From the NCBI RefSeq assembly GCF_000383955.1, contig NZ_KB913013.1, positions 5,599,694 to 5,663,693 on the forward strand: DNA of 64,000 nt. The letters run 5' to 3'. A program made the position numbers and the translations under genes. Shown here one piece after another: positions 1 to 62,212 of this stretch; position 1 is the first letter of the stretch; each line of letters opens with the position of its first letter. The notes under the pieces are model-generated. The model saw only the letters and a list, made by a program, of their open reading frames with translations, was not told where the DNA came from and ran no database searches. Origin of the DNA: Rudanella lutea DSM 19387. Lineage in GTDB: Bacteria > Bacteroidota > Bacteroidia > Cytophagales > Spirosomataceae.

Positions 1-84
1 GAAAAGGAGAAGGAAGGAAAGGGAGAAGGGAGAGCTAATTTCCCTTTTTTCCTTTCCTCCCTTCTTCCTTTCCCTTCCTTTTTA
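1..84. repeat. Octamer-word hairpin (cut by window start)
   Basis: A purine-rich arm (about 1-35) is followed by a pyrimidine-rich, roughly complementary arm (about 41-84). Both arms read as degenerate 8-nt words such as AAAAGGAG and TCTTCCTT. The right arm runs into the stop codon of the minus-strand LysM/BON gene, so a terminator-like role for that gene is possible. The left end may continue beyond the window. Confidence 0.7.
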
Positions 85-555
85 CAATTGCGGAATCCGC
101 AGTACCTGATTTGGGTAAATCAGGTCAGGATCTTTGAGCATGGGTTTGTTGGCTTCGAAAATGACGCCGTATTTCATGGGATCACCGTACACCTCTTTCG
201 AGATTTTTGACAGCGAATCGCCCTCTTTAACCGTGTAATAACGTGCTTCTGGGGTTGGGTCGGCAACTTCCAGCTGATTGTCTACCACCTGAACGCCCTC
301 AACGTTACCTACAGCCAACGCAATTTTCTCGGCATCTTCCTGGGTTTTCACTTCCCCTTCCAGAATCACCGTATCGCCTTTGGTTTTAACCGTCAGTTTG
401 TTGTAGGCTAAGCCAAGTTGCTTCACGTGGTTGAGCAGCGCCTGTGCTTTCAGGGGCTCAACTTCAGCTTGTTTGGCGGGCTCGGCGGCTGGCGCTTCGT
501 GCTCTTTGCCGAAGATTTTCTCACCAACGCCTTTAAAAAAATTTAATAGACCCAT
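82..555 (-). CDS. BON and LysM domain protein (Kbp/YgaU-like)
   Basis: 157 residues with no signal peptide, beginning MGLLNFFKGVGEKIF. A BON domain spans roughly residues 35-100 (conserved GDTVILEGEV and a VVDNQLEV strand). A C-terminal LysM domain spans about 106-155 (YYTVKEGDSLSKIS, then YPNQVLRIP). Order and length match the cytosolic Kbp/YgaU family, which is 149 residues in Escherichia coli and binds potassium there. Whether this protein binds potassium or peptidoglycan cannot be read from sequence. It is apparently monocistronic, reading toward the octamer hairpin at the window start. Confidence 0.85.
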   Translation of the reverse strand: MGLLNFFKGVGEKIFGKEHEAPAAEPAKQAEVEPLKAQALLNHVKQLGLAYNKLTVKTKGDTVILEGEVKTQEDAEKIALAVGNVEGVQVVDNQLEVADPTPEARYYTVKEGDSLSKISKEVYGDPMKYGVIFEANKPMLKDPDLIYPNQVLRIPQL

Positions 556-709
556 CGTTTTTATAGATTAATGTGAAACATGAGTTAACGGGGCAAAGAA
601 CAGAAATCGCTTTTAAAAGTCAACCCCGTACGCTCATCCGTATCGTTTTATTAACCTTCCGTTAATCTGAATATTTATACAAAATCGATTCTGAAAGCCC
701 AGAAACGGG

Positions 710-717
710 TACTTTTG
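710..717 (+). promoter_or_regulatory. Bacteroidota -7 element (TAnnTTTG)
   Basis: TACTTTTG lies about 50 bp upstream of the SGNH lipoprotein ATG. It matches the Bacteroidota sigma-factor -7 consensus. No clear TTG sits 19 bp upstream. Confidence 0.55.
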
Positions 718-766
718 CGTTCTTTTACATGAAAGTATAATTTTTCCATTGTTTAATTTACTTAAG

Positions 767-2104
767 ATGGTAAATAACAAACAGTTACGATGGGGGCTGG
801 TGCTGGGCACTCTGTTGGGTGTGTCGGCTTGTTCCAACGATATTGACCCAAATGCCGGGTTACCTACCCCAACTCGGGGCGAAGCTGACTTTACGAAGTA
901 TGTAGCCGTAGGAAACTCGCTCACGGCTGGCTACCAGGATGGGGGCTTGTACCGTGAGGGGCAGCTGAGCTCATATCCGGCTTTGCTGGCAGGCCAGTTT
1001 AAAACGGCAGGAGGGGGCGAGTTTGTACAGCCGTTGTTTGCCGAGGCTCAGGCAAATGGTTCGGGTTATCTGAAGCTGACCAGCCTGACGCCTACTACGG
1101 GAATTGTGTTGCCGGGGGCGGCCCGCGGTGGTCAAACTACGGGTGGCCAACTGCTGCTGACTAAGTACAGCGGAGCAAATCAGAACCTGGGCGTACCGGG
1201 TATCCGTATGGCCGACATTCAGCGGCCGGGTTACGGAAGTGTACAGGGCAACGCGTTTTTCGAGCGGTTACTGCCCGATAATTCGACCACAACGTATCTG
1301 CAATACGTGAGCGATAATCTCAACGGGGCTACGTTTTTTAGCTGCTGGTTGGGTAACAACGACGCCCTGGGGTATGCAACTTCTGGCGGGGTATCGCCCC
1401 TGACCGACGAAGCCGTTTTCAATACGAATTACACGGCCATGCTCAACAAACTAACTGAAAACAACCGCAAGGGTATTGTAATCGGGATTCCGCCGGTTTC
1501 GGTGGTGCCCTTCTTTACCACGGTAACATTGCCTCAACTGTTGGCGCAGGTGAATGCGGCTGTTCAGCAGCAGGCTCCCGGCACGCCGTCAATCACGGCG
1601 CTGGTGATTCAGTCGCCGGCGGCTCCGGGTGGCGTACGCGCTACCAAGTCCGGTGATCTGCTGTTACTACAGCCGTTCATTTCGGGTGAATACAACAAAA
1701 TCGGATCAACCTCGGCAGGTACAGGTCGCGGACCCTACGGGCTATCGGCTACGAACCCGCTACCCTCGCAGTTTGTGCTCGATGCCGAAGAGGTGACGTT
1801 GCTCAATGCCCGCATCGCTGCGTTTAACCAAACTATGAAAACGGGAGCCGAAGCCAAAAATATTGCGTACCTGGACCCCGGCGTGTTGCTGACCCGTGCC
1901 CAGCAAGGGATTACCGAAAACGGCGTGACATACAATACCACGTTTGTGCAAGGCGGAATTTTCAGCCTTGATGGGGTTCACCTGACCCCCGCCGGCTACG
2001 CGCTGACGGCCAACGACATTATTAATACCATCAACGCGAAATACAAATCAACGATTCCGACCCTGAACGCGAGCCGGTACCGTCGGGTGCTGTTGCAGCC
2101 TTAA
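767..2104 (+). CDS. SGNH/GDSL hydrolase-like lipoprotein
   Basis: 445 residues. The ATG at 767 is preferred over an in-frame TTG at 749 because it directly precedes a lipoprotein signal ending in a VSAC lipobox, which predicts a lipid-anchored envelope protein. SGNH blocks are visible: a GNSLTAG nucleophile block (Ser51), a GNND block and a C-terminal DGVH block (Asp402, His405), the expected catalytic triad. The fold is typical of esterases and lipases; the substrate is unknown. A barrel protein follows 63 bp downstream on the same strand, in an arrangement reminiscent of FadL-neighbouring SGNH lipoproteins, so a two-gene operon is likely. Confidence 0.8.
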   Translation: MVNNKQLRWGLVLGTLLGVSACSNDIDPNAGLPTPTRGEADFTKYVAVGNSLTAGYQDGGLYREGQLSSYPALLAGQFKTAGGGEFVQPLFAEAQANGSGYLKLTSLTPTTGIVLPGAARGGQTTGGQLLLTKYSGANQNLGVPGIRMADIQRPGYGSVQGNAFFERLLPDNSTTTYLQYVSDNLNGATFFSCWLGNNDALGYATSGGVSPLTDEAVFNTNYTAMLNKLTENNRKGIVIGIPPVSVVPFFTTVTLPQLLAQVNAAVQQQAPGTPSITALVIQSPAAPGGVRATKSGDLLLLQPFISGEYNKIGSTSAGTGRGPYGLSATNPLPSQFVLDAEEVTLLNARIAAFNQTMKTGAEAKNIAYLDPGVLLTRAQQGITENGVTYNTTFVQGGIFSLDGVHLTPAGYALTANDIINTINAKYKSTIPTLNASRYRRVLLQP

Positions 2105-2167
2105 GTTCAGGCGGAGCTACCCCGATTGGGTATGCCTCCCTGCGAAATCTTTTAGACCTCATTCTTT

Positions 2168-2980
2168 ATGAATACACCTAAAAAACTGCTGGCAGCGGGT
2201 CTGTTGCTGGTTTCGACGGCTGCCTGGGCGCAAAACACGGGCGGTTTGTTCAAAGACATACAATATGGTTTGAAAGTGGGCGGAACAGCCACCCACGGCT
2301 ATACCGTGATACCCGCCTTGCCCACGGCGATAGCCAACGTGCAGGTCCCCGAAATTACCAATAACAACAACGGCATTGGCTACGGCTACACCGCTGGATT
2401 GTTTGCTCGGAAAAATATGCGGAAAGGGTATATTCAGGCCGAGGTGACCTACAATATGTTTGTGCTCAAGCAGGTTGCCGATGTCACGCTCGATGTGAAT
2501 GCCAACCCGTCGTTGGTCAATGCCCTCCCCATCAGCGTGGCCCCTGGGTTGGTTAATGCCACGTTGAATGCTACTTCGGAGTCGACGCTGAAATCGGTCA
2601 ATGTGCCAATTCTGCTCGGCCGTCGCCTGCTGAACGATAAAGTGCGGGCCTATTTTGGACCAAACTTCATTTTTGTGACCAATGCGCAGGCGATTCGGAA
2701 TACGAGCGGCCGACTAAACGAAAACAAAACGATTGGATTTCCGCAGCGAGAGATTCCACTCACTACGAGCCAAACGAATCTGCTCAACCGTTTCGAAGCC
2801 GCCGATCTGGAAGTGAAAGACGTTACCTATGCGCTTGAGTTCGGCTTAGGGGTGTCGCCCACGCGCCGAATGGACGTAGACCTGCGGTATGCGGTACCGG
2901 TTGGGGGCGTTTACAAAAATACCGAAATCAAGGGGTTTCTGGGAATTGCCAGCCTGACAATCGGGTACGCGGCATTTTAG
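2168..2980 (+). CDS. Outer-membrane beta-barrel protein
   Basis: 270 residues. A signal peptide ends in AAWAQ (signal peptidase I type). The rest is alternating hydrophobic and polar strands rich in Gly, Tyr and Asn, and the chain ends in Phe (IGYAAF), the usual terminal signal for barrel insertion. It resembles the general Bacteroidota porin-family/outer-membrane beta-barrel proteins. The ligand is unknown. It lies 63 bp after the SGNH lipoprotein gene and is followed by a hairpin terminator. Confidence 0.75.
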   Translation: MNTPKKLLAAGLLLVSTAAWAQNTGGLFKDIQYGLKVGGTATHGYTVIPALPTAIANVQVPEITNNNNGIGYGYTAGLFARKNMRKGYIQAEVTYNMFVLKQVADVTLDVNANPSLVNALPISVAPGLVNATLNATSESTLKSVNVPILLGRRLLNDKVRAYFGPNFIFVTNAQAIRNTSGRLNENKTIGFPQREIPLTTSQTNLLNRFEAADLEVKDVTYALEFGLGVSPTRRMDVDLRYAVPVGGVYKNTEIKGFLGIASLTIGYAAF

Positions 2981-3033
2981 TCTGAATCACGCAATGAGGT
3001 CAATGCCGTACAGACGGTGTATTGCCTTTACAG

Positions 3034-3075
3034 ACAAGGAGGTTGGCCCCGGTGTCAGCCTCCTTGTTCTTTTTT
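3034..3075 (+). terminator. Intrinsic terminator after the barrel gene
   Basis: A 9-bp stem (ACAAGGAGG at 3034-3042 with CCTCCTTGT at 3059-3067) is followed by a T-run at 3070-3075. It overlaps the 3' end of the convergent PliI-like gene. Confidence 0.7.
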
Positions 3076-3636
3076 GGTATCACTTTTTTCCGGTTCCAAC
3101 ACGTAAACCTGTCCGGCAGGTTTTAGACGATAACGCACCATTTGTACACCTCCGGTCGGGTAGGCATTCGCATCGCCTGAGGCATAGACCGGAAACTTAC
3201 GGCATAGGATATACGATTCAGTCCATAGGCTATCATGCCCCATATAGCCGGATGTCGCCGGCATAGGCCATTCGGTAGGTAAAATATCGACGCGCCGGTC
3301 GGGTAAAAACTGCCAGCCGACCACCCGCCCAAATGACCCTGTACCAGTGCTGCGCAAATAAATATAGATTTCGGGAAACCGATTGCTATCCAGATCCGCC
3401 ACATCGGCTCCCACCACAATACCGTCGATGGGTAAGCGAAAAGCGGTGAGCAACAGGCTTCCTCGCCGGGCCTGAATGGCTACTTCTGAGCTTGTACCTG
3501 TATCCAGCGTGGTTATCTGAAAGTTGTAAATATTGAAAGTCAACTGTTTAGAAAACACAATCGGGCTCTGCTCCGGCAGGGATGGGCGGAGTAGAGACAA
3601 GACGACGGTGCATACTAAAACCAGGATGACGGGCAT
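3055..3636 (-). CDS. PliI-like periplasmic lysozyme inhibitor
   Basis: 193 residues from the ATG at 3636; an in-frame TTG at 3660 would add eight. An N-terminal hydrophobic segment (MPVILVLVCTVVLSLL) acts as a signal peptide or anchor. The body carries VADLDSNRFPEIYIY, GYMGHDSLW, a RKFPVY strand and DANAYPTGG. From memory, these match the PliI family, inhibitors of invertebrate-type lysozyme. No inhibitor assay can be inferred, and the family call rests on motif recognition only. It is convergent with the barrel gene and may share a terminator with it. Confidence 0.6.
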   Translation of the reverse strand: MPVILVLVCTVVLSLLRPSLPEQSPIVFSKQLTFNIYNFQITTLDTGTSSEVAIQARRGSLLLTAFRLPIDGIVVGADVADLDSNRFPEIYIYLRSTGTGSFGRVVGWQFLPDRRVDILPTEWPMPATSGYMGHDSLWTESYILCRKFPVYASGDANAYPTGGVQMVRYRLKPAGQVYVLEPEKSDTKKEQGG

Positions 3637-3707
3637 AAAAAAGCGATGACGTACACTCAAGTAACGTCATCGCATATAATTTAGTTGAAGCGAATAACTG
3701 AACCGTA

Positions 3708-4046
3708 TCAGTCTTCCATAAAAGGCGCTCCAATCAAGTGCAGGGAATTCAGGTGAGGCAGAATTCCGCGGCCTTTGGTGGTTAACCGATATTCAACACG
3801 GGGGGGAACCTCACTAAACGACTCTTTCTCCAGCACCCCAAGTGAAATCAGCGATTTCAGCTCCTGAATGAGTACCTTTTCACTCACGTCGGGCATCATG
3901 CGCCGAAGTTCGCCGTAGCGCCGGGTATGTTCACCAAGATTGAGCAGAATAAAAAGTCGCCATTTCCCGCAGATAATATCAAGTGTTCTTCTCAGAACCA
4001 GCTGATCCCGTTCAGCCATAGTCACATCACGATTACTGTCTTTCAT
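3708..4046 (-). CDS. HxlR-family transcriptional regulator
   Basis: 112 residues from the ATG at 4046; a GTG at 4064 would add MNCPIE. It is a winged-helix HxlR domain: LDIICGKWRLFIL, the recognition region YGELRRMMPDVSEKVLIQELKSL, and the wing RVEYRLTTKG. Family members are small DNA-binding regulators, often of redox or aldehyde-stress genes, and frequently autoregulated. A candidate operator lies just upstream. No enzyme gene is adjacent, so its target cannot be named. Confidence 0.88.
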   Translation of the reverse strand: MKDSNRDVTMAERDQLVLRRTLDIICGKWRLFILLNLGEHTRRYGELRRMMPDVSEKVLIQELKSLISLGVLEKESFSEVPPRVEYRLTTKGRGILPHLNSLHLIGAPFMED

Positions 4047-4077
4047 TTCAATTGGACAATTCACCTAGAAAATCCTT

Positions 4078-4618: not shown

Positions 4619-4626
4619 TACCTTTG
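4619..4626 (+). promoter_or_regulatory. miaA -7 promoter element
   Basis: TACCTTTG ends 19 bp before the miaA GTG start, implying a very short 5' leader. Confidence 0.6.
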
Positions 4627-4645: not shown

Positions 4646-5545
4646 GTGAAAAAAACGTTGCTGGTCATTGCCGGACCCACCGCCGTCGGAAAAACAGAGT
4701 TGTGTGTTCGCCTGGCCAAAAAATTACAAACCGACGTTGTATCGGCCGACTCCCGGCAGCTATATCGCGAACTGAATATCGGTACGGCCAAACCGACTCG
4801 GGCCGAGATGGACGGGGTTACGCATCATTTTATCAATTCACACTCCATACAGGAGGTGGTCAGCGCGGGGCGCTACGAACGTGAGTGCCTGACCCTGCTC
4901 AATGGGCTTTTCAACCAACACGATGTAGTGATTCTGACCGGTGGAACGGGCTTATATATCGACGCGCTTTGTTTTGGCCTTGACGATATTCCGCCTATCG
5001 ATGGCACCATTCGTGACGGGCTCATGGCTCGGGTCGCATCCGAGGGGCTCGAACCTCTGCAGCAGGAGTTGCGTCAACTCGATCCGGTGTACGCAGCCGA
5101 GGCTGATTTGCAAAATACACAGCGGGTAGTACGAGCTTTGGAGGTGTGCCTGGGGACCGGGCAGCCGTTTTCGTCGTTCCGGCGGCAGCAGGTGGCCCCG
5201 CGCCCGTTCGAGATTATTCTCTGTGCCCTCGACCGACCCCGGGAGGAGTTATACGCTCGCATCGACGCCCGCATGGATGCCATGCTTGCGGCTGGGCTCG
5301 TCGACGAGGCACGGAGTCTATTGCCCTACCGAGATCACCTGGCGCTGCGTACGGTGGGGTATCAGGAGGTATTTGGTTATTTCGATGGCGCCTACGACTA
5401 CGACGAAATGGTGTTTCTGCTCAAACGCAATACCCGGCGCTACGCTAAACGGCAACTGACCTGGTTCAGGCACCGAGCTAATTATGCGTGGTTTAGCCCG
5501 AACGACGTCGATAAAATTGCTTCTCTTGTAAGTAGTAGGCAGTAG
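4646..5545 (+). CDS. miaA: tRNA dimethylallyltransferase
   Basis: 299 residues, GTG start. MiaA adds a dimethylallyl group to A37 of tRNAs that read UNN codons. The P-loop GPTAVGKTEL is at residues 9-18, followed by the signature SADSRQLYRELNIGTAKPT and, further on, LTGGTGLYIDAL. Length matches the family. The last codons (SSRQ and stop) lie within the tandem words of the adjacent hairpin, so the C-terminus seems to have been shaped by that repeat. Convergent with guaA. Confidence 0.97.
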   Translation: MKKTLLVIAGPTAVGKTELCVRLAKKLQTDVVSADSRQLYRELNIGTAKPTRAEMDGVTHHFINSHSIQEVVSAGRYERECLTLLNGLFNQHDVVILTGGTGLYIDALCFGLDDIPPIDGTIRDGLMARVASEGLEPLQQELRQLDPVYAAEADLQNTQRVVRALEVCLGTGQPFSSFRRQQVAPRPFEIILCALDRPREELYARIDARMDAMLAAGLVDEARSLLPYRDHLALRTVGYQEVFGYFDGAYDYDEMVFLLKRNTRRYAKRQLTWFRHRANYAWFSPNDVDKIASLVSSRQ

Positions 5546-5646
5546 CAGTGGGCAGTGGCAGTAGGCAGTACTCTTGCCGGTCCGCCGGTGCGGTCAGCTA
5601 CTGCTTACTGCCACTGCCCAATGCCACTAATTACTGCCTACTACGT
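5531..5646. repeat. Heptamer-word hairpin between miaA and guaA
   Basis: The left arm (about 5531-5570) is built of 6-7-nt words such as GCAGTAG and CAGTGG. The right arm (about 5597-5645) is the approximate complement (TTACTGC, CACTGC). The loop contains a small GC palindrome. The left arm includes the miaA stop codon and the right arm ends two bases before guaA ends, so it fills the whole convergent gap and may terminate both genes. Confidence 0.8.
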
Positions 5647-8821: not shown

Positions 8822-8881
8822 GGAGAAAAGGAGGAAAGGAGAAGGGAGTCAGACTGCTTTCCTCCTTTCCTCCCTTCCTCC
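8822..8881. repeat. Octamer-word hairpin between mqo and the NamZ gene
   Basis: The left arm (8822-8850) uses 8-nt words such as GGAGGAAA; the right arm (8858-8881) uses CCTCCCTT. It fills the convergent gap exactly from stop codon to stop codon. The vocabulary is close to that of the element at the window start. Confidence 0.8.
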
Positions 8882-12663: not shown

Positions 12664-12690
12664 GAGACTGATTGAGGGGCTACAAAAAAC

Positions 12691-12721
12691 AGATGACATC
12701 TCTCCAAACGAGATGTCATCT
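12691..12721. terminator. Convergent hairpin terminator
   Basis: A 12-bp perfect stem (AGATGACATCTC with GAGATGTCATCT) has a 7-nt loop. An A-run at 12684-12689 gives a T-tract on the minus strand, so it best serves the TraB/GumN gene. Confidence 0.75.
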
Positions 12722-12754
12722 GCGGTGAATTGATCTGAAACAAGCAAATTTCCG

Positions 12755-21436: not shown

Positions 21437-21541
21437 GATATAGGAGATAGAAGCGAGGAGTGAGGAGAAAAGGTAGCCCAACGGTATTTATTCGTGAGCA
21501 ACCCGTTTCTCCTCACTTCTCGCTTCTGTCTCCTCACTACT
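21437..21541. repeat. Heptamer-word hairpin after fabG
   Basis: The left arm (about 21439-21475) reads in 7-nt words such as AGGAGAT and AGGAGTG; the right arm (about 21503-21541) reads TCGCTTC and TGTCTCC. Here the two flanking genes are co-directional, so the element is not restricted to convergent gaps. Confidence 0.75.
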
Positions 21542-26374: not shown

Positions 26375-26904
26375 GTGCCAATCGGAGCGGTGCCGGTTGT
26401 CTTATCGCTGACCCGAACCGGGTTGGAGGAAAGTCCGGACAGCGCAGAGCACCATACTTCCTAACGGGAAGGCAGGCGGCTGGGAACGGCCGTCTGACAG
26501 CCAGTGTCACAGAAAATATACCGCCAGAAAACAGTTTACAGTTTCAAGTTTATCGGTTTCAGTGCCGCGAAGCGGTCTTACCTGCGTAAGCCAACTATAA
26601 ACTGTAAACAACAAACTGTAAACTGTTTTCGGGTAAGGGTGAAAAGGTGGGGTAAGGGCCTACCGCCCGGCGGGTGACCGACGGGGCAGGATAAACCTTA
26701 TGGGCTGAAAGACCAAATATGCGGCAGATTAGGGGCGGCTCGTTCCTGTAGGTTGGCTTCGGCTGGCCGATGCTGTCGCGGGTAGGTCGATAGAGGTCGT
26801 CGGTGACGGCGATCCCAGATAAATGATAAGACCCGGTGCGTCGGTTTTGCCGACAACCCGGTGACAGAATCCGGCTTATAGGCCGGTATTGCTCCGGTTG
26901 GCAC
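26375..26904 (+). ncRNA. rnpB: RNase P RNA (bacterial type A)
   Basis: The catalytic RNA of RNase P, which removes tRNA 5' leaders. The ends pair as helix P1 (GTGCCAATCGGAGC with GCTCCGGTTGGCAC). Conserved cores are present: GGAGGAAAGTCCGG near 26426, the GGTAAGGGTGAAAAGG block near 26632, and ACAGAATCCGGCTTAT near 26864. At about 530 nt it is much longer than the typical 350-400 nt. Most of the excess is an approximately 105-nt insertion in the P12 arm, described separately. Confidence 0.97.
26526..26630 (+). repeat. Heptamer-word hairpin forming P12 of rnpB
   Basis: Between the conserved ATATACCGCC and GGGTAAGGGTG blocks, where P12 sits, the left arm is made of 7-nt words (GTTTACA, GTTTCAA) and the right arm (26593-26630) of AACTGTA-type words. 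The tip holds two small hairpins (CCGCGAAGCGG and CTTAC-GTAAG). Construction is the same as in the intergenic elements of this window. Confidence 0.85.
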
Positions 26905-30518: not shown

Positions 30519-30575
30519 ACGCTGTAAGCCGAAAGGGCGGGGTTGTAACCCCGCCCTTTCGGCTTACAGCGTTTA
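30516..30575. terminator. Perfect 29-bp palindromic terminator after trmD
   Basis: Left arm 30516-30544 and right arm 30547-30575 pair perfectly over 29 bp with a minimal loop. The arm starts at the trmD stop codon itself. No long T-run follows immediately, but such a strong stem between convergent genes is terminator-like. Confidence 0.75.
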
Positions 30576-30692
30576 TAGTTCTTGGTTTTTTGTGTATGGT
30601 TTTTGGGGTGCTTATGTTCAATTAAGCAAGTTCCGGTTCACGGGCAACTTGCCCCCACAACCAGAAACGATAAACTAAAAACGATAAACCCC
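30571..30692. repeat. Heptamer-word hairpin before the GT51 gene
   Basis: The left arm (about 30571-30608) reads GTTTATA, GTTCTTG and similar 7-nt words; the right arm (about 30660-30691) reads AAACGAT, AAACTAA. It fills the rest of the convergent gap up to the minus-strand gene end. Confidence 0.65.
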
Positions 30693-32979: not shown

Positions 32980-33084
32980 AAGGTAAGCGGTAGAGAGTCC
33001 GAAACTGCTGCTATTCGGTAACGACAATCATCACGTTGATGGTTCGGTCTTACTCAAGATGGAGAGGAATTCGGTAGTATATGG

Positions 33085-33498
33085 TCAAGCAATAACAGTG
33101 ATATGGCTGTATTTGGGGAAGTACTGGTCTGTGCTTAAAATCGGAATTTGCTCGGAGTGGGCTTGTGCCAGAATCAGCAAATCAAACGGGTCGGCATGAG
33201 GTTTACCATCTGGTTTGAACACTTTTGATACCTGTTGAATCGATTCGTAATGCGTTGAATTGGTTCGTAAAATTTTTATTTTGGATTGGCGCCGGGCTCT
33301 TTGAATACCTGAATAATTTATATGTGCAAAATCTTTCTTCCCAACCCTGATCTTGATTGCAATTTCGTACAGGCTCGCTTCTGATACAAAAAACGAGTTG
33401 GCCGGGTCGCTAAGGACTCTCAACTGATTGTCACTTAACCGGCTGAAACTTTTCTCAAAAAGAATAATTAGAACATTCGTATCAATCAGATACCTCAT
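33085..33498 (-). CDS. PIN-domain toxin (VapC-like)
   Basis: 137 residues. PIN nuclease fold with the acidic residues expected at the active site: Asp5 in YLIDTNVL, a Glu in SEASLYEIAIK, Asp in HADPFDLLILAQA and Asp in LSTDQYF. VapC toxins cut tRNA or rRNA when freed from antitoxin. The start overlaps the antitoxin stop by 4 nt (ATGA), so the pair is translationally coupled. A stand-alone PIN nuclease of other function is possible. Confidence 0.87.
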   Translation of the reverse strand: MRYLIDTNVLIILFEKSFSRLSDNQLRVLSDPANSFFVSEASLYEIAIKIRVGKKDFAHINYSGIQRARRQSKIKILRTNSTHYESIQQVSKVFKPDGKPHADPFDLLILAQAHSEQIPILSTDQYFPKYSHITVIA

Positions 33499-33794
33499 GC
33501 CTTTTTACCCTTTCTGGCCTGTGGAATTTCGTGCGGTTCAAGCAACTCTGACAGACCTTTGAACTTCCCCTCCGGAATGAGTCGGGTAACGCGTTCCAAT
33601 AAACTTTCGCCTTCCTGACTTTGCGAAGTGAACGTTCGGCTCTTGCCCTTCACGACCACAGTTAGTGTAGGATGTATTCGGCTACGGACACCCGACAAGA
33701 CGGCTCCCTGACGTACCAAGTGTTTCTTCTTAGTGCCTGTGACTGAATCTGTTTGAGGCTTTTCTCCTGATTTGTGAGCGAATGAGGTTGCCAT
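33495..33794 (-). CDS. Putative antitoxin partner of the PIN toxin
   Basis: 99 residues from the ATG at 33794. It is basic and Ser/Thr/Lys-rich, with no certain DNA-binding domain. The C-terminal part (RVTRLIPEGKFKGLSELLEPHEIP) looks amphipathic and could wrap the toxin. Antitoxin assignment rests on the 4-nt ATGA overlap with a PIN gene and on size. I do not recognise the family. Confidence 0.65.
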   Translation of the reverse strand: MATSFAHKSGEKPQTDSVTGTKKKHLVRQGAVLSGVRSRIHPTLTVVVKGKSRTFTSQSQEGESLLERVTRLIPEGKFKGLSELLEPHEIPQARKGKKA

Positions 33795-34009
33795 GGCAGC
33801 GTTTTTTACAAATATAAAACAAGTAATCACCTGGGCAAGGTTCAGGCTATTTAGGATAAGACGCTACTGGTTGTACCTGTGTTGTACCAATCACAAAAAA
33901 ACGCCGTCAGCAATGCGCTGAAACTGTAAACGGTATCATATCTGAAATATATACCGTTCAATTGAACTGGATTGGATGAAGGTAAGCAACCGTTAATCAG
34001 TATGATAAG

Positions 34010-34162
34010 ATGAGTCACAAGGCAAAAAACGCCCCCCCTTCAGACCTACGGTTTGTCTATGTCATTCACCCAGACACCGGTGAAACGAAGCGGATAAAAG
34101 CACGTGATTTTGAGAGCTGGAAAGAAAATGGATGGATAGTGGATAAGTCGGTTCATAAATAG
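34010..34162 (+). CDS. Small 50-residue protein
   Basis: An intact ATG-to-TAG frame of 50 codons, MSHKAKNAPPSDLR at the start and DKSVHK at the end. It has a short beta-like stretch (FVYVIHPDTGETKRI) and a WKENGW motif. No family is recognised. Its last five residues (KSVHK) equal those of the convergent HNH-like protein because both 3' ends lie in one perfect inverted repeat. It is on the opposite strand to the PIN pair. Expression is unproven. Confidence 0.45.
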   Translation: MSHKAKNAPPSDLRFVYVIHPDTGETKRIKARDFESWKENGWIVDKSVHK

Positions 34163-34224
34163 AGCATTATAGCCCTACTAATTACTTTGGTAGGGCTATA
34201 ATGCTCTATTTATGAACCGACTTA
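34144..34224. repeat. Perfect 35-bp inverted repeat covering two gene ends
   Basis: Left arm 34144-34178 and right arm 34190-34224 are perfectly complementary, with an 11-nt loop. The left arm contains the last codons and stop of the 50-residue gene; the right arm contains those of the HNH-like gene. It can act as a bidirectional terminator, but has no T-run. Confidence 0.95.
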
Positions 34225-34997
34225 CGCCGAGCAATAACAGCTATGTCTACTTGAAACTTATAAAAATCTTCATATTGATTTTTTAGTGTAAACTGGCTAT
34301 TCTTCTCATAAGGCCAAAGTCTGAGTACTTTCTCACTATGAATGGTATCTATCGAGTAATTAGACTCTTTAGCGTTCTCATAAAATGAGACTCTCATTGC
34401 GAATGCTCGTATTTGCAAGGCAATGCAATATGATACAGTCTCAGTTGTGAATTGTTCTGAAAATTTTTCACTGTTTTCCTTACGGGAGATAAGAGCAATT
34501 TGGATTGGACTTTGAATCCATTCTAGATCCTTTCCTTTCTTAATTAAGGCTATATCAACTTTGACGTTTCTAGGAAGTTGCTTGAACTTTCCAATGTGCT
34601 TAAAATGTACATCAGGAACTAACTTTCTATAATTTGAAGCAGCATTGATTGTTATAGCTGTTTTATAAGCCCATAAGACAACAGCACTCCTCTCTTTCCT
34701 AGAAAGATGAAGTAAGTAATTATTGTTAGATAGGATTTTCAATAATAGAGGTCTAAAGTCATTTTCTAGCTCACACATCCAGCCATTATTACAGACTTGA
34801 CACACATTACCAAGAACTAGATTTTCGCCCGATTGGATTCTTTCATCCAAGGGTTGCATAAGAAAATTAGAAATATGAGTTCCTCTGAAAATTTGCTTTG
34901 TACCTCCGGTAATTTCTTTTTGAAGCCACTTAGGCCAGACATGTTCTTTGGCTTTTTCTCTGGTTTTACCACAAAAAATGCATGTTGTATTACCCAT
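34206..34997 (-). CDS. HNH/zinc-ribbon-like protein
   Basis: 263 residues. The N-terminus has CIFCGKTREKAKEHVWPKWL and, about 45 residues later, CQVCNNGWMCELE. Two CxxC pairs plus EHV and NNGWM resemble HNH endonuclease-like proteins widespread as uncharacterised genes, in which the Cys residues bind zinc. The C-terminal 180 residues are not recognised. Its codons are markedly AT-rich compared with neighbours (visibly below 40% GC), which suggests recent transfer. Whether it is a nuclease is inference; it lies next to a toxin-antitoxin pair and a tRNA. Confidence 0.65.
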   Translation of the reverse strand: MGNTTCIFCGKTREKAKEHVWPKWLQKEITGGTKQIFRGTHISNFLMQPLDERIQSGENLVLGNVCQVCNNGWMCELENDFRPLLLKILSNNNYLLHLSRKERSAVVLWAYKTAITINAASNYRKLVPDVHFKHIGKFKQLPRNVKVDIALIKKGKDLEWIQSPIQIALISRKENSEKFSEQFTTETVSYCIALQIRAFAMRVSFYENAKESNYSIDTIHSEKVLRLWPYEKNSQFTLKNQYEDFYKFQVDIAVIARRKSVHK

Positions 34998-35118
34998 AAG
35001 TGATTCGTTAACGCTTACAGAAGAAGGGGGCCTACACCACTGGTAATTTGATCTAGGAAGTATTAGAAACTGGAGACTGTACCTTTTTTGCTAACTGCAC
35101 CCTAGAGAATAAATTAAA

Positions 35119-35153
35119 AAACCCCTTAAAAGAGATTGTTTTAAGGGGTTTTG
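35119..35153 (-). terminator. tRNA-Ser terminator
   Basis: A 14-bp stem (AAAACCCCTTAAAA with its complement) with a 7-nt loop. On the minus strand it lies 10 bp after the tRNA and ends in a T-rich stretch. Confidence 0.85.
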
Positions 35154-35162
35154 ACACTTTTG

Positions 35163-35250
35163 CAGAGAGGAAGGGATTCGAACCCTCGATACGCTTGAGA
35201 CGTATACACACTTTCCAGGCGTGCTCCTTCAACCGCTCGGACACCTCTCT
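35163..35250 (-). tRNA. tRNA-Ser (GGA)
   Basis: 88 nt, minus strand, with a long variable arm as expected for serine. Acceptor stem AGAGAGG pairs with CCTCTCT, discriminator G. The anticodon loop CTGGAAA gives GGA, and GGTTCGAATC is the T loop region. The 3' CCA is not encoded. It bounds the accessory patch at 33-35 kb. Confidence 0.96.
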
Positions 35251-35319
35251 GTTTGCAGGGGCAAAAGTAGCGTTTTTCGGGACTAATCGCGTTGAGAAAG
35301 CGGTTTTAGTTGTACGCTA

Positions 35320-36637: not shown

Positions 36638-36756
36638 GGAGAAAGAGTGAAAAAGTGAAAAACTGAGAGAGTGAAGGGGTGAAAGAGTGGGCTGTCGGGG
36701 AGTGGGATTACGCGTCAGACATTCACTCTTTCGCTCATTCACTCTCTTGGCATTCG
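36638..36756. repeat. Octamer-word hairpin between MFS and SDR genes
   Basis: The left arm (about 36643-36693) has at least six 8-nt words such as GAAAAAGT and GAGAGAGT; the right arm (about 36718-36750) has TCACTCTT, TCGCTCAT. The flanking genes are co-directional. The 13-mer TCGCTCATTCACT occurs at about 36731. Confidence 0.85.
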
Positions 36757-43733: not shown

Positions 43734-43825
43734 AATTTAATGTATAATGAACAATGTTAAATGTATAATTAAATGGCTGGTTGTGAGTAGGTAATTCAAT
43801 TATTCATTTTACATTGTTCATTCAC
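43734..43825. repeat. AT-rich heptamer-word hairpin
   Basis: The left arm (43734-43777) has words AATGTAT, AATGAAC, AATGTTA; the right arm (43792-43825) has ATTCATT, TTACATT. Located in the 339-bp gap 43635-43973, which otherwise holds no gene. Confidence 0.8.
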
Positions 43826-43875: not shown

Positions 43876-43957
43876 TTTTTCTGACAGGATTACAGGATAA
43901 ACAGGATTTTTTTGGGGCTCAATCAATCCTGTTTATCCTGTAATCCTGTCAGAAAAA
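43876..43957. repeat. Perfect 33-bp hairpin of CAGGAT words
   Basis: Left arm 43876-43908 and right arm 43925-43957 are perfectly complementary over 33 bp, with a 16-nt loop. Units of 8-9 nt (CAGGATTA, CAGGATAAA) repeat three times per arm. A looser outer pairing extends into the last codons of the minus-strand flavoprotein gene. Confidence 0.95.
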
Positions 43958-49437: not shown

Positions 49438-49575
49438 TTAACAGATATGGGTGAACAACGAGCAACGAACAGAGAACAACGAACAATCAACAACGAACAA
49501 TCAACAACGAGCAATGAACAGAGAGCAATTTTTTGCCCGTTGTTCTCTGTTCGTTGTTCTCTGATAATTGTCAGT
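49438..49575. repeat. Long heptamer-word hairpin between fur and rel
   Basis: The left arm (49450-49531) contains about eleven 7-nt words such as GAACAAC, GAGCAAC and CAACAAC. The right arm (about 49538-49575) contains GTTGTTC, TCTGTTC and similar. It is the longest array seen. Co-directional genes flank it. Confidence 0.9.
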
Positions 49576-53882: not shown

Positions 53883-53982
53883 CAACAGTACAATGAGCGA
53901 ATGTGTGAATGAGTGAATTGGCGAATGTCTCTCGAGCCGCTTTTATTCACGCATTCATCCATTCGCTCATTCACTTAATAAA
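53883..53982. repeat. Octamer-word hairpin between tRNA-Leu and tig
   Basis: The left arm (53890-53925) has words AATGAGCG, AATGTGTG, AATGAGTG; the right arm (53943-53976) is TTCACGCA, TTCGCTCA and similar. The 13-mer TCGCTCATTCACT lies in the right arm. It immediately follows tRNA-Leu. Confidence 0.9.
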
Positions 53983-57771: not shown

Positions 57772-58737
57772 TCAGTTATTTAAATTGTTGTCAATTCCGT
57801 ACATAACCTCAATATGAGGTAAAGTGATTAATGACAAAAAGATAAACAAAAGTGGTAAAGGGTCGAAATCAGGATAAATGGTTTGCCAACTAACTGTAAA
57901 AAGAAGGAGAAAGAAGATTGAAAGCAGCGTAAGAGGCAGCGATTTTACCCAGATATGTTTCAGGGCGCCATACGGTTTTTGGTTATTTACAGGCAGGAAA
58001 TTCTGAAGGGTAGCAAATGAGGAGAGGGCGTGCCAACCACCGAAGTACAACATAAATGAAGGCAGCAAAGGTAAAAAGTAAGCCAGTAAAAGAATGGTGA
58101 GCAAACGCATGATTCGAGCACCATTGAGTGAAATTGGGTGATGGCTATAAGCCAGCATGGTCAACACTAAAATTAGCGTAGCCCAACCGCGTAAAACAGC
58201 CCCGGCCCGATCGGCAGCAAACTGCCAAACCTGCATAACCTGAGCGTCGGCCTGCACGATGCGGCTCAAAATCGGGCTTGTTTCGTCGGCATGGGTTAAA
58301 AGAATGAACCCCAGAACAAAGCCGCCAGCCGCAAGCCGGGCGATAAGCCAGTACGGTGTTTGAGGGGCGTTGTTTAGGTCAGTTTCGCCGAAGTGCCAGG
58401 CTGAGATCAAAAGAAAAACCAGTAGGCAAGGCACAGGCGCAAATAGCCATGCAAGTGCATAGAGGCCCATCGTGAGCAAATATTTAGCGATAAACCGCCT
58501 GAACGAAAACGGTTTGTGGAGCCGGATGGATCGTTCGTGTTCGACCAAATGATCGAGAGCCCCGTGTGGGATACCCGCAACGGCGAGCATAAAGGCGCAA
58601 AAACCTACTTGAAGCGTTTGGGGGAGAGAGCCTATCACGAATTGGTACGTGACTAAAACGAGACCAACGAGAATGGTCAGAAGGGTAGGGGTTTGGTACA
58701 GGCGACGCCAAACCCGGGCGGTCAGTAAGCGGATCAT
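57772..58737 (-). CDS. blh: Brp/Blh beta-carotene 15,15'-dioxygenase
   Basis: 321 residues, multi-helix membrane enzyme. Conserved His motifs of the family: AGIPHGALDHLVEH, SAWHFGETDLN, YFGGWHALSSF and LPHIEVMYGID. It cleaves beta-carotene into two retinals, supplying the chromophore for the adjacent rhodopsin. No carotenoid synthesis genes (crtE, crtB, crtI, crtY) lie in the window, so the substrate must come from elsewhere in the genome. The codon usage looks somewhat more AT-rich than the flanks. Confidence 0.94.
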   Translation of the reverse strand: MIRLLTARVWRRLYQTPTLLTILVGLVLVTYQFVIGSLPQTLQVGFCAFMLAVAGIPHGALDHLVEHERSIRLHKPFSFRRFIAKYLLTMGLYALAWLFAPVPCLLVFLLISAWHFGETDLNNAPQTPYWLIARLAAGGFVLGFILLTHADETSPILSRIVQADAQVMQVWQFAADRAGAVLRGWATLILVLTMLAYSHHPISLNGARIMRLLTILLLAYFLPLLPSFMLYFGGWHALSSFATLQNFLPVNNQKPYGALKHIWVKSLPLTLLSIFFLLLFTVSWQTIYPDFDPLPLLFIFLSLITLPHIEVMYGIDNNLNN

Positions 58738-58811
58738 CGGTGAAGTGTACGGTTGGTACTTAGTACTAATCTGTTCAAACTCAATATCGAACCGGATGTT
58801 TAAGCGTTTTT

Positions 58812-58918
58812 GCCTCGGTACTGGACCTTCGGACTTCAGACACTGGACGTTAGACTTACTACCTTTATATAGGAAGGTCTAACGTCTAATGTCCAACATC
58901 TAATGTCCAGTACTGAGC
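58812..58918. repeat. Heptamer-word hairpin upstream of blh and yhhN
   Basis: The left arm (about 58817-58862) has words GGACCTT, CGGACTT; the right arm (about 58876-58915) has GTCTAAC, GTCTAAT, GTCCAAC. It lies in a divergent gap (58738-59039), the only element between divergent genes, so it cannot be only a terminator. Confidence 0.85.
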
Positions 58919-59039
58919 GTTTTTGCACGATGGTAGACAGATGGAATTTCGCGAACTGGATCAGGAAAAACGAGATGTTGTTTATGTGGATGGATGGGCC
59001 CAAATTGCAGGCTTACACAACTGCTCTTCATTGGCCGGT

Positions 59040-59750
59040 ATGATTTCTCGTCCGCTTTTTATCTGGTTGTTGCTCGTAACGGCTCTCGAAATCACGGGCG
59101 ACCTACTGCGCATACCCGTGTTACATTACGTATGCAAGCCGCTCATTATGCTCTCGCTCATGACCTGGGTGGTGTTTAAACGGGCACACTGGCAGGAGAG
59201 CGGACCCGTGCGGTGGCTGTTTGTCGGAATGGTATTTGCCCTGCTCGGCGATGTGTTTCTGATGATTCGGGAAATCGACTTGTTTGTGGTGGGGCTGGGG
59301 TCGTTTTTGTTTATGCAACTGGCCTATATAGCCTCTTTTTGGGGGCAACTTAGCGATGCCGGAGTGCGCTTGTCGGCTCGCCAGTTTGCGCTTCGGGCCA
59401 TTCCGTTTGGATTGTATTCGGCCGGATTTCTGCTGTATCTGTACAAGCCGCTGCGTGCAACCGGATTACTTGGCCCGGTAGTGGGTTATGTAGTCTGTAT
59501 TGCGCTGATGGGCATCATGGCGGCCATGCGCCGGGAGGCTGTGACCGAGGCTAATTACAGACAGGTAGTGGCGGGGGCCGTATTGTTTATGCTCTCCGAC
59601 TCGGCTATCGCGTTAAATAAGTTTGCATTCCCGTTGCCTGTTGCCAGCCTGATCGTTATGAGTACGTATGCTGCTGCGCAATACCTGATTGTGACGGGTG
59701 TGGTGCAGGCAACCGCCGATGTGGAGGGGGCAGAAGAGGCCGTTCTGTAG
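59040..59750 (+). CDS. YhhN-family lysoplasmalogenase-like protein
   Basis: 236 residues from the ATG at 59040; an in-frame start at 58923 is rejected because the added region is polar and repeat-adjacent. About eight transmembrane helices with the YhhN signature FALLGDVFLMI and FMLSDSAIALNKF. TMEM86/YhhN enzymes hydrolyse the vinyl-ether bond of lysoplasmalogen. Its proximity to the rhodopsin genes may be coincidental. Confidence 0.85.
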   Translation: MISRPLFIWLLLVTALEITGDLLRIPVLHYVCKPLIMLSLMTWVVFKRAHWQESGPVRWLFVGMVFALLGDVFLMIREIDLFVVGLGSFLFMQLAYIASFWGQLSDAGVRLSARQFALRAIPFGLYSAGFLLYLYKPLRATGLLGPVVGYVVCIALMGIMAAMRREAVTEANYRQVVAGAVLFMLSDSAIALNKFAFPLPVASLIVMSTYAAAQYLIVTGVVQATADVEGAEEAVL

Positions 59751-59773
59751 CTGCCCTTTGGATAAACAGGTAC

Positions 59774-59804
59774 TTGGGTTTTCGGCACGATGCCTTTATT
59801 TTTG
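59774..59804 (+). promoter_or_regulatory. clpX promoter
   Basis: TTG at 59774-59776, 20 bp, then TATTTTTG at 59797-59804, about 116 bp before the clpX ATG. Confidence 0.5.
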
Positions 59805-59920
59805 TTAGCCTATTATGACTTGATTCGCATCAGGTCTTTTTTTGTGCGGTTTCGGTTAACAAACAATATCAACGCTCCGTTACCGTATCACATTTTTCTA
59901 CCCGAAATAGACACGTATTC

Positions 59921-61171
59921 ATGCCAAATATTAACTGTTCGTTCTGCGGCCGACGCAAAAATGAGGTCATGCTGCTACTTTCTGGCCTGGATGCCCACAT
60001 CTGCAATTATTGCATTGAAGAGGGGCATCAGGTGGTGTTGCAGGAAATGAAGCCGCAACGGACCGAGGCTAAAGAGGTTGATATCAAGTTGATCAAGCCG
60101 GTCGACATGAAAAAGCACCTCGATCAGTACGTGATTGGGCAGGACGAGGCCAAGAAAGCGTTGACGGTGGCTGTGTACAACCACTACAAACGGTTGATGC
60201 AGCCGAAGTCGGCCGATGAGGTAACGATCGAAAAATCGAACATTCTGATGGTGGGCGAAACCGGTACCGGTAAAACCTACCTCGCCCGCACGATTGCCAA
60301 GATTCTGGAAGTGCCCTTCTGCATTGCCGATGCCACCGTGATTACCGAAGCCGGATACGTAGGCGAGGATGTGGAAACGATACTGACCCGCCTGCTTCAG
60401 GCAGCCGACTATGATGTCGATGCGGCCGAACGGGGTATCGTGTACATTGACGAGATCGACAAAATTGCGCGCAAAGCGGATAACCCCTCAATTACCCGCG
60501 ATGTCAGTGGCGAAGGGGTACAACAGGCATTGCTTAAATTGCTCGAAGGATCGGTGGTGAACGTGCCCCCGCAGGGTGGCCGTAAGCATCCCGATCAGCG
60601 GATGATTGCCCTCAACACCGAAAACATTCTGTTTATATGTGGAGGAGCTTTCGACGGCATTGAGCGGCATATTGCCAAGCGCGTCAACTCACGGCCCATT
60701 GGGTTCTCGGGCGAGCGTCGGCTCCACGAGAGCTCCGAAAAGTCATACCTGATGCGGTACGTATCGGCGCTGGATCTCAAATCGTTCGGCCTCATCCCCG
60801 AATTGCTCGGCCGGTTGCCTATTCTGACTCACCTTGAACCCCTCGATCGTAAGGCTCTGCTTCAGATCCTGACCGAACCCAAAAACGCCATCTCGAAACA
60901 GTACAATAAACTGTTTGCAATGGAAGGTATTGAGCTGAAATGGACCGACGAAGTGCTCGACTTTATCGTTGATCAGGCGCTCACCTATAACCTGGGGGCG
61001 CGGGGCCTGCGTTCGATCTGCGAATCCATCATTCTGGATGCCATGTACGAGTTGCCGTCGCAACCCGGCATCAAGGAGTTTACGGTATCGCTCGACTACG
61101 CGCGCCAGAAATTTGGCGATTCGAAGTTTCAGGGCATGTTGCGGTGGTCCGATACGTCGGCTGCGGCCTAA
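59921..61171 (+). CDS. clpX: ATP-dependent Clp protease ATP-binding subunit
   Basis: 416 residues. N-terminal zinc-binding domain with [10 protein letters not shown] and CNYC; AAA+ core with Walker [11 protein letters not shown] and Walker [11 protein letters not shown], sensor [10 protein letters not shown]-terminal [11 protein letters not shown]. Unfolds substrates for ClpP. It is separated from clpP by three genes, as noted. Length is typical. Confidence 0.97.
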
Positions 61172-61287
61172 TCTGGACCGTTTCCTCGCTTTTTCGGAAC
61201 TGCGTCATTTGTTAGCAACAAAGTCATCAGGGCGTTGTTAGACCGGTGAAATCTGAGTAGTTCACCATTAAACAAAAACGTTATCTG

Positions 61288-61905
61288 ATGAAAACTTTTG
61301 CCCAACGAATCACCCTTTTCGTGGCCGGAACGGCCCTGTTCACTGCCTGCAGCCGTCCGTATGCAACCATTCAGCGCACCCCTGCCGAAAAGTTTGCTAC
61401 GGTTACCAAAACGGAGGCTGTACAAACCATTGCGCCTGCTCAGAATGAAGCACCGGTAGCCGTGCAGGCTCCGGTAGCAACGCCTGACGTGGAAACCCCC
61501 GCTGCACCAGTGGCTCCACAAGCTCAATTGGCTACGGTTCGGGCGCAGCTGAACGAAGCCGTTGCCAGTAACAAAGAGGTAATGGCCGACAAGCGGGTGC
61601 AGAAGAAAATGGCTAAGATCAACGCCATGCTCGACGCCACCACTCAGCAGGCAACCATGGCACCTGTATCAAACACGGCTGCCAAGAAAATGAACCTGAT
61701 GGAGCGGACCATGGTGAAGAAGATCGACAAAAAGATCAAGAAGCAGATGGCTCCTGACCAGCCAATGGCGAAGAGCCTGCTCACATTGGGGGCTATCATT
61801 GCCATTGCCGGTTTGATCCTGATGTTGCTTGGCGTAGCCAGCCCGCTGGGTGTTATTGCCCTGATTGTAGGTCTGGTACTGATTTTGGTTGATCTGTTGC
61901 GATAA
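61288..61905 (+). CDS. Lipoprotein with C-terminal hydrophobic hairpin
   Basis: 205 residues. Lipoprotein signal with lipobox FTAC, then a Pro/Ala/Val-rich spacer, a coiled-coil-like Lys/Met-rich region (RVQKKMAKINAML, KKIDKKIKKQM), and two hydrophobic helices at the end (LTLGAIIAIAGLILMLLG and LGVIALIVGLVLILVDLL). A lipidated N-terminus with a membrane-spanning C-terminus is an unusual topology. No family assigned, although similar lipoproteins occur in Bacteroidota. Confidence 0.7.
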   Translation: MKTFAQRITLFVAGTALFTACSRPYATIQRTPAEKFATVTKTEAVQTIAPAQNEAPVAVQAPVATPDVETPAAPVAPQAQLATVRAQLNEAVASNKEVMADKRVQKKMAKINAMLDATTQQATMAPVSNTAAKKMNLMERTMVKKIDKKIKKQMAPDQPMAKSLLTLGAIIAIAGLILMLLGVASPLGVIALIVGLVLILVDLLR

Positions 61906-61960
61906 CCGAAGGCTCAGACACGCGACCGTGTCGGTCTGAAGACCTGAATCCACCAGAGAG

Positions 61961-62015
61961 CCGCCGGGTGATCGCATGAAGATTGGCTTCGTGCGGCCAC
62001 CCGGCGCTTTGTTTT
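61961..62015 (+). terminator. Terminator after the lipoprotein gene
   Basis: Stem of about 18 bp with G-T pairs (61963-61981 with 61988-62005), followed by TTTGTTTTTG. Confidence 0.8.
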
Positions 62016-62040
62016 TGTATGTTTTATGTATTGAATCGGA

Positions 62041-62139
62041 ATGAAATGTATAATGTAGAATGAATAGTGAAAACGATGATGACCAGCGCATTGAGCTTTT
62101 TCCATTGTACATTATTTATTGTGCATTAACTTATAATGG
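62041..62139. repeat. AT-rich heptamer-word hairpin
   Basis: The left arm (about 62041-62070) uses AATGTAG-type words; the right arm (about 62103-62135) uses CATTGTA, CATTATT. The vocabulary resembles that at 43734-43825. Together with the next element it fills the 309-bp gap 61906-62214, which holds no gene. Confidence 0.7.
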
Positions 62140-62212
62140 AGTGAATGATTGTGTGAAACGCTCTGGCCCTATTCACTCAATCGCTCATTCACTCAATCAC
62201 TCAATCAAAACC
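62140..62212. repeat. Octamer-word hairpin before the hydrolase gene
   Basis: The left arm (about 62140-62165) reads GAGTGAAT, GATTGTGT; the right arm (62171-62206) has TCACTCAA, TCGCTCAT and two more TCACTCAA-type words. It ends within 10 bp of the hydrolase ATG and contains the 13-mer TCGCTCATTCACT. Confidence 0.85.

Follow-up and report, generated by a model that had tools for sequence, protein, structure and literature searches.

What are the long hairpins that recur at gene ends in Rudanella lutea DSM 19387, and by what process could they arise? The window studied here is a stretch of 64,000 nt of this genome (contig NZ_KB913013.1, bases 5,599,694–5,663,693). An earlier note on this DNA had listed 13 loci of one construction, in which two arms of degenerate tandem words face each other as an inverted repeat. 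We use the term word palindrome for a long hairpin with arms made of degenerate tandem words of 7 or 8 nt. They were followed through a sample of 644 kb of the 6.5-Mb source genome and through relatives. G001 is a sister Rudanella species, and G010, G236 and G204 belong to one genus (g8). The similarity of one protein suggests that g8 is Fibrisoma-like and that another genus, g4, is Spirosoma-like.

Word palindromes in the source genome and its relatives

The arm periodicity of the 13 loci was compared with 300 dinucleotide shuffles, and the inverted repeat with 100 shuffles. Significant lag-7 or lag-8 periodicity was found at 12 of the 13 loci (p ≤ 0.003), and the inverted repeat exceeded all 100 shuffles at 11. 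At locus 1–84, neither the periodicity (p 0.23) nor the inverted repeat (18 against a shuffled maximum of 19) rose above shuffles. The inverted repeat of 62041–62139 also stayed below its shuffles (12 against 14), and that of 8822–8881 barely exceeded them (17 against a maximum of 16). At 62140–62212 the best single lag was 12, with lag 8 close behind. The period had been described as constant within each locus, which does not apply to 5531–5646, where by eye it alternates between 6 and 7.

The gap autocorrelation of the window and a 400-kb sample peaked at lags 4, 7, 8, 11, 14 and 21. A scan of gaps for tandem arrays at lags 5–12 yielded 38 arrays in the 644 kb (27 of lag 7, 10 of lag 8 and one of lag 9). 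Shuffles of the source genome yielded none, so the predicted excess of lags 7 and 8 was borne out (37/38). As a control, shuffled Pontibacter gaps gave 8 arrays and the shuffles of the other groups gave 0. The arrays were located in hairpins in 31/38 cases in the source genome and in 19/19 cases in G010. Inverted repeats with a score of at least 15 occurred in 78 of 288 gaps and in none of 288 shuffled gaps. Gaps shorter than 30 nt were omitted from most gap counts. Adjacent 20-kb loci were scanned separately in the hairpin classification, and locus L039, which overlaps a 264-kb stretch around the window, was excluded from the hairpin, family and array counts and from those of enriched 8-mers, distances to stops and starts, stem edges, mismatches, T-runs and gap coverage. 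The word-built class, defined by an arm periodicity of p ≤ 0.04 and holding some false members (e.g., L065 8447), comprised 49 of the 134 hairpins of the source genome, 35 of them co-directional and 14 convergent. If the sample is typical, this amounts to about 500 word hairpins per genome.

Word-classed hairpins were also found in the relatives' samples: G001 18/50, G002 8/44, G010 26/56 and G006 5/35. By genus, the samples gave 15/47 in Spirosoma, 5/19 in Larkinella, 2/4 in Fibrisoma and 5/19 in Arcicella. The comparison groups gave 2/48 (Pontibacter), 1/10 (Saprospiraceae), 4/20 (Dysgonomonas) and 2/14 (Hymenobacter).

The earlier note had given each locus a word of its own. Instead, the words of the source genome recur as about ten families, with the words GGAGAAAGG, AGGAGTGAGGAGATAG, GGCAGTA, AACAACG, AATGTATAATGAAC, GAGTGAATGAGTGAAA, CAGTTTA/GGTTTATAG, GATGAGTGATGAG and GTTAGAC/TTGGACAT, and two more. 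In families A–I, the 5′ arm carried the same word in 50 of 52 hairpins; the word lists were drawn up after the arms had been viewed, so this polarity describes consistency within families and is not a blind test. The two arms match each other better than the words along an arm do, as in a mismatch-free 40-bp stem of G010. Loops differ between copies in most families; common outer ends or loops are seen in some members of families E and I. Full-length matches (80–89%) of one G010 hairpin (L051 18989–19104) were found at 22 places in G236. Together with the presence or absence of hairpins between close species, this agrees with the spreading repeat system that had been proposed.

Other palindrome families were seen beside these. 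The 8-mer GATGTCATC was the most enriched in the gaps of the source genome (22 gap-strands versus 1.4 expected) and belongs to a palindrome family, K. Its palindromes were in convergent gaps in 5/5 cases in one count, and two similar ones were co-directional in another (L031). Another lineage-specific palindrome family, with arms of the GTGAGGACACGG type, recurs in G006 (L057 685, L060 18729).

The loci had all been taken as intergenic, but 26526–26630 lies inside the RNase P RNA gene (rnpB). The source-genome gene measures 506 nt; the word hairpin makes it exceed the genes of most relatives by about 100 nt. A total of 57 rnpB sequences were matched in 61 genomes and 52 of them were read; the five unread matches were 346–405 nt. 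The loop in question was delimited by the conserved ACAGAAA...ACCGCC and GGUAAGGGUGAAA blocks, and its helix is presumably P12. Long hairpins with significant lag-7/8 periodicity occupied this loop in 8 of the 52 Spirosomataceae RNAs (p ≤ 0.01 each), with different words: CAGTTTA in the source genome and G001, GAATGAGT-like words in G236, G160, G273 and G256, GTGAAGA in G069, and AAGTCGTA in G123. G010 has a 52-nt hairpin that starts like that of G236 (p 0.05). The loop of G277 is long but shows neither periodicity nor a hairpin, and that of the congeners G002 and G204 is 6 nt. Because RNase P RNA is made only if RNA polymerase passes the word hairpins, they are not strong terminators there. 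The view that simple termination does not suffice for all hairpins is upheld by this case, which is also a ready test of whether word hairpins are harmless inserts.

Turnover, shared apex and inverted gene ends

G001 is for the most part collinear with the source genome over the 264 kb surrounding the window. Between the two species, 13 gaps were unmapped and 10 hairpins were lost or changed. The hairpins at 43734 and 43876 are missing as a pair in G001, which has an extra family E (AATGTATAATG) hairpin at 12664, in the gap of the GATGTCATC palindrome (12690–12722). Filled and empty gaps differ across most of their length, and no clean junction was seen at which a target site duplication could be read. 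The 755 aligned stem pairs of 35 conserved gaps showed 103 one-sided and 18 two-sided changes, and 14 of the 18 two-sided changes kept the pair, versus about 2 expected. In G002, the gap orthologous to 5531–5646 holds CTGTTAT/CTGTTCA words instead.

G001 has an element of another kind on contig C28, at about 661.7–662.0 kb (L080) and 503.8–504.0 kb (L041). Its inner arms are of the GATCCCTCCT type and its ends of the AGCAGAATTA type; it stands at two alignment breaks, is absent there from the source genome, and looks like a miniature inverted-repeat transposable element (MITE).

Replacement was fast within g8. In two 20-kb stretches, 10 mapped gaps bore hairpins in both G010 and G236, and 7 of these had no arm 8-mer in common between the sister species. 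By eye, these seven had words in both species (3), words in G236 only (2), or convergent hairpins without clear words (2). G010 and G204 had no common arm 8-mer in 4/4 hairpin gaps, and one gap with a 70-bp-arm palindrome in G010 is 12 nt long in G236. Gene-end DNA is thus replaced by palindromes. The Spirosoma gap behind namZ and before a gene read as guaA was read by eye in seven genomes; it held GAATGAGT-like words in three, GGAGGAAAGG in one, a wordless hairpin in one and no evident hairpin in two. Hairpin-bearing gaps of G010 and G236 coincided to some degree (10 in both, 4 and 2 in one only, 7 in neither; Fisher p 0.036). The value became 0.27 once gaps shorter than 40 nt were dropped, and the comparison with G204 gave p 1.0. 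Conserved hairpin positions between G010 and its congeners were therefore weak with G236 and absent with G204, and this idea was rejected.

The tip GGCTGACGC...GCGTCAGCC was seen under unrelated words in hairpins of several genera. The pattern GCTGACGC-N6-20-GCGTCAGC was present in 18 of 241 genomes of the order, and the 11 genomes with more than one copy were all Spirosomataceae (G236 104, G010 71, G222 19 and the source genome 8 copies). A scrambled-apex control was present in 4 of 241 genomes, with at most 3 copies each. From the listed places 40 apex regions were picked, some of which were reused in the gap-coverage measurement below. The 42 apex hairpins read were convergent (18), co-directional (21), divergent (1) or in called genes (2, both in G123 and without word arms). 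Arms of at least 13 bp outside the apex were found in 36 of the 42, reaching up to 66 bp and representing many word families. At the L242 gap, the stops of both genes of G010 lie inside the palindrome at a common GGTAG, and the same apex stands over different words and a different loop in G236. The tip is recurrent, not universal.

The L269 convergent gap was compared in six genomes. The five intact junctions carry, by eye, five different palindromes, and G160 is split over two contigs. In G222, the 66-bp arms include, inverted, 14 nt of the conserved end of gene 1 (CGGTAGCGTATTAA), and this inverted end meets the end of gene 2 at a common CGGTA. In G006, the end of gene 2 (ACCCAACGGTAA) is inverted inside the gap. 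The C-termini are LLAVAY or LLAVAF, and DYTQR, throughout the six genomes, so the coding ends are older than the palindromes. Inverted coding ends would be the footprint expected of fold-back copying. They, and the mismatch-free arms of degenerate words, speak for the earlier suggestion of a hairpin-generating replication process, and the copied coding ends mark how the replacement of gene ends happens.

Origin, placement and rival explanations

Judging from sequence comparison, we hold with about even confidence that the word palindromes originate by intramolecular template switching during replication, together with word slippage, and survive in tolerant transcribed DNA. The nascent strand would copy one flank, which comprises a word array and sometimes the end of the adjoining gene. 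It would then fold back at a small hairpin acting as a seed. For a minority of palindromes, this seed would be GGCTGACGC-loop-GCGTCAGCC, which may serve as the turning point. By copying itself, the folded strand would make a perfect inverted copy and would return to the normal template at a short common sequence. Slippage by one word could make the words, lengthening or shortening the arrays, and the palindromes would later decay through point mutation. They would survive at sites where one more hairpin is nearly harmless (behind stops, behind tRNA and in the RNase P RNA loop) and be rare ahead of genes, so that placement is probably set by purging more than by a positive function.

Besides the inverted coding ends and the well-matched arms, this origin is favoured by the one apex under many word families, the exchange of hairpins at the same gaps, the word stems that pass stops but no starts, and the periodic hairpins of the RNase P RNA loop. 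Several observations weigh against it. The exact apex was present in only 2 of the 49 word hairpins of the source genome and 4 of the 26 of G010 (looser apex-like motifs in 6/49 and 14/26), so that most of them give no evidence of a common seed. Inverted coding ends were seen at one gap and in two genomes only, and the common stretch at L242 is the stop region alone. Of the seven replaced gaps of G010 and G236, only three have words in both species. Most word hairpins of the window stand at the same place in G001, with word insertions and one-sided changes. Ten of the 14 compensated double changes lay in gaps without a word-classed hairpin, so arm-to-arm correction is not evident between the two Rudanella species and was rejected as a candidate. 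Seven word-classed hairpins of relatives lie in divergent gaps. The dispersed full-length copies and the fixed word polarity point to hairpins being copied whole, an outcome that template switching does not provide. The tens of copies of one word family per genome are likewise outside what fold-back copying and slippage account for. A dedicated palindrome-writing system is a further idea, though we think it very unlikely. In such a system, an enzyme or replication factor of Spirosomataceae would recognise the GGCTGACGC apex in single-stranded DNA or RNA, reverse synthesis, write and rewrite word palindromes both where transcripts end and in RNA loops that tolerate them, and spread families between loci.

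Placement relative to genes bears on these explanations. Genes were called with a simple in-house program that overlooked at least one real gene (window 57772–58737), so the orientation counts are approximate. Inverted repeats of any kind with a score of at least 15 were found in 30/45 convergent, 48/186 co-directional and 0/57 divergent gaps. At the lower threshold of 12, hairpins numbered 52 convergent, 79 co-directional and 4 divergent. The earlier note had placed the hairpins in gaps of all three orientations. The hairpin at 58812–58918, below the score-15 threshold, does lie in a genuinely divergent gap, between BCD on − and YhhN on +. Divergent gaps are nevertheless rare hosts, and a placement blind to orientation is not supported. 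Three of the 38 source-genome arrays were in gaps called divergent, two of which adjoin an exact-apex hairpin at L061 313. In co-directional gaps of the source genome, the median distance from the upstream stop to a word hairpin is 9 nt, and that from the hairpin to the following start is 22 nt; the medians of other hairpins are 26.5 and 140 nt. Word stems enter coding sequence at 20/160 stop-side edges versus 0/96 start-side edges in the sampled clade, and other hairpins at 22/364 and 0/158, respectively. Stem and loop cover a median of 96–97% of the short hairpin-bearing convergent gaps of G010 and G236, where some regions had been picked for the apex, compared with 58% in the source genome and 35% in Pontibacter.

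Such placement would suit structures selected at transcript ends, i.e., bidirectional terminators, insulators or stabilisers of mRNA 3′ ends, for which words are a cheap way to a long stem. The orientation bias, the closeness to upstream stops and the hairpin-bearing gaps common to G010 and G236 (at the p values given above) favour this explanation, which we regard as unlikely. It is opposed by the word hairpins in 8 of the 52 RNase P RNAs, which transcription must pass. A short loop and a T-run behind the stem are the marks of an intrinsic terminator, and word hairpins as a class lack them: a run of four or more T stands at 31/160 of their edges versus 112/364 edges of other hairpins (p 0.008), and their median loop is 27 nt versus 10 nt. 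G–T mismatches were not in excess over A–C mismatches on the sense strand of co-directional stems (92 versus 79), which gives no sign of G–U-based maintenance at the RNA level; other hairpins showed no excess either, so the test has no positive control. Tolerance is judged more likely than a selected function, and a role at transcript ends is possible. The gene-end hairpins of Spirosomataceae should not be annotated wholesale as terminators. A transcript that ends at a hairpin might also prime its own cDNA, the inverted copy then being recombined into DNA. This reverse-transcription fold-back would also explain the placement at transcript ends, and hairpins behind genes, behind tRNA and inside an RNA gene agree with it, as do the inverted coding ends. 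However, DNA-level template switching needs no extra enzyme, and the rnpB copies lie within the transcript and not where it ends; we consider this route highly improbable.

Movement of miniature transposons or elements like repetitive extragenic palindromes (REP), by a transposase specific for the apex or the ends, would fit the one hairpin family at 22 places in G236, the presence or absence between sister species, and the outer ends or loops shared by some copies of families E and I. Genes for Y1 transposases (PF01797, of REP-associated tyrosine transposase (RAYT) or IS200 type) were above cut-off in 17 of 19 genomes. Yet loops vary among copies in most families, arms vary by locus under a constant apex, and palindromes can take in adjoining coding ends. 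In addition, the apex motif was absent from 12 Y1-transposase loci, whose hairpins were, by eye, of kinds other than word hairpins. A Y1 transposase of RAYT type was accordingly rejected as the mover, and mobile elements in general seem rather unlikely. The PF01797 genes at L082, L085, L086 and L089 have palindromes of their own nearby (e.g., GTGCCGTAGGTACGC, CGTCGCGTAGCGACC), apparently a distinct REP system. Heptamer arrays born by slippage as in cyanobacteria, with palindromy secondary, would match in the period of 7/8 and in the occurrence in the RNase P RNA gene. We give this explanation hardly any credence, since most arrays lie in hairpins in the counts above, the palindromes continue past the words into coding ends, and a common apex exists. 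Template switching with slippage is thus the origin that we prefer.

The features of the window are listed in Table 1. Rfam at gathering scores over the window returned the RNase P RNA and two tRNAs only. About 2.3 kb beside tRNA-Ser (32998–35318) are mostly unshared with G001, which has 1.3 kb there and an identical tRNA. This segment contains a 35-bp perfect hairpin at 34144–34224 and is perhaps a mobile element.

Table 1. Hairpins of the window, and the RNA gene that contains one of them
Feature	Position	Strand	Context
Family A (GGAGAAAGG) hairpin	1..81		Convergent gap, from stop to stop; neither period nor inverted repeat exceeds composition shuffles
Family C (GGCAGTA) hairpin	5531..5646		Between IPP-transferase gene (+) and GMP-synthase gene (−); left arm covers the IPP-transferase stop codon
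Family A hairpin	8822..8881		Occupies the entire convergent Mqo/NamZ gap, stop to stop
Family K (GATGTCATC) short palindrome, not word-built	12690..12722		
Family B (AGGAGTG/AGGAGAT) hairpin	21437..21541		Co-directional gap, immediately behind the SDR gene stop
RNase P RNA gene (rnpB)	26389..26894	+	Rfam RF00010, 250.5 bits
Family G (CAGTTTA) word hairpin	26526..26630	+	Extends one helix of RNase P RNA; conserved in G001
25-bp perfect hairpin, 4-nt loop, not word-built	30519..30572		Shares convergent gap with 30571..30692
Family G (GTTTATAG/GGTTTTTTG) word hairpin	30571..30692		Convergent gap
Family F (GAGTGAAA, period 8) hairpin	36638..36756		Fills co-directional SDR/MFS gap
Family E (AATGTATAATG) hairpin	43734..43825		Co-directional gap; absent from G001
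Family J (ACAGGATTACAGGAT) 33-bp perfect hairpin	43876..43957		Absent from G001
Family D (AACAACG/AACAATG) hairpin	49438..49575		Co-directional FUR-RelA/SpoT gap
Family F (GAATGAGT) hairpin	53884..53982		Directly behind tRNA-Leu
Family I (GTTAGAC/TTGGACAT) hairpin, GTACTGGAC-type ends	58812..58918		Divergent gap
Family E hairpin, weak inverted repeat	62041..62139		
Family F array, weak hairpin	62140..62212		

Comparison with known systems

In the open-access literature searched, no description of word palindromes in Bacteroidota was found. Short tandemly repeated repetitive (STRR) sequences have reportedly been described in heterocystous cyanobacteria. The cyanobacterial STRR are degenerate heptanucleotide tandem arrays in many intergenic gaps, and they are direct repeats without an obligatory inverted partner. 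The cyanobacterial repeats in RNase P RNA lie in helix P12. Word palindromes resemble STRR in their heptamer words (27 lag-7 versus 10 lag-8 arrays among the 38) and in their presence in rnpB, where STRR have reportedly been described as well (Vioque 1997, NAR 25:3471). They differ in that Rudanella words can also be 8 nt, most arrays are the arms of palindromes, an apex recurs, and the hosts are Bacteroidota.

TAACTGA heptamer repeats occur in Beggiatoaceae, cyanobacteria and five Bacteroidetes (PMC4679880). Like the word palindromes, they are intergenic heptamers, found also in Bacteroidetes and patchy between species. They are direct repeats of a single word and in the Maribeggiatoa genome stand mostly just ahead of start codons, whereas the Rudanella hairpins have many words in inverted arrangement behind stop codons. 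REP are palindromes of 20–40 bp tagged with GTAG or CGTC at one end (PMC3733652). Both are high-copy extragenic palindromes, and the word-hairpin apex contains CGTC; the word-hairpin motif, however, is at the apex, and the arms are variable word arrays of up to 66 bp. In REP/RAYT systems the same palindrome flanks the transposase gene; the 12 PF01797 loci showed neither the apex motif nor, by eye, a word hairpin.

The BrickBuilt MITE of Porphyromonas gingivalis is likewise an intergenic Bacteroidetes element with a tandem array. It is one family with a 23-nt unit, a leader and a tail with small inverted-repeat ends, and 19 copies in one strain (PMC4596501). Constant terminal inverted repeats like those of a MITE were found in some copies of families E and I only. 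REP, MITE and BrickBuilt differ from word palindromes in arms, ends or unit.

Template-switch hairpins have been inferred in RNA genes by ancestral reconstruction; a single event of reverse-complement copying yields their perfect stems (PMC8794818). Reverse-complement copying and the keeping of perfect stems would be common to both, but word palindromes stand in gene-end gaps, are built of words and in some cases have a recurrent apex. An inverted copy of adjacent unique sequence, the mark of template switching, was found at the L269 gap in G222 and G006, two cases only. Word palindromes link heptamer repeats, palindromes and the growth of an RNA helix. By analogy, the word palindromes may be regarded as a palindromic relative in type of the cyanobacterial STRR, sometimes with a common apex.

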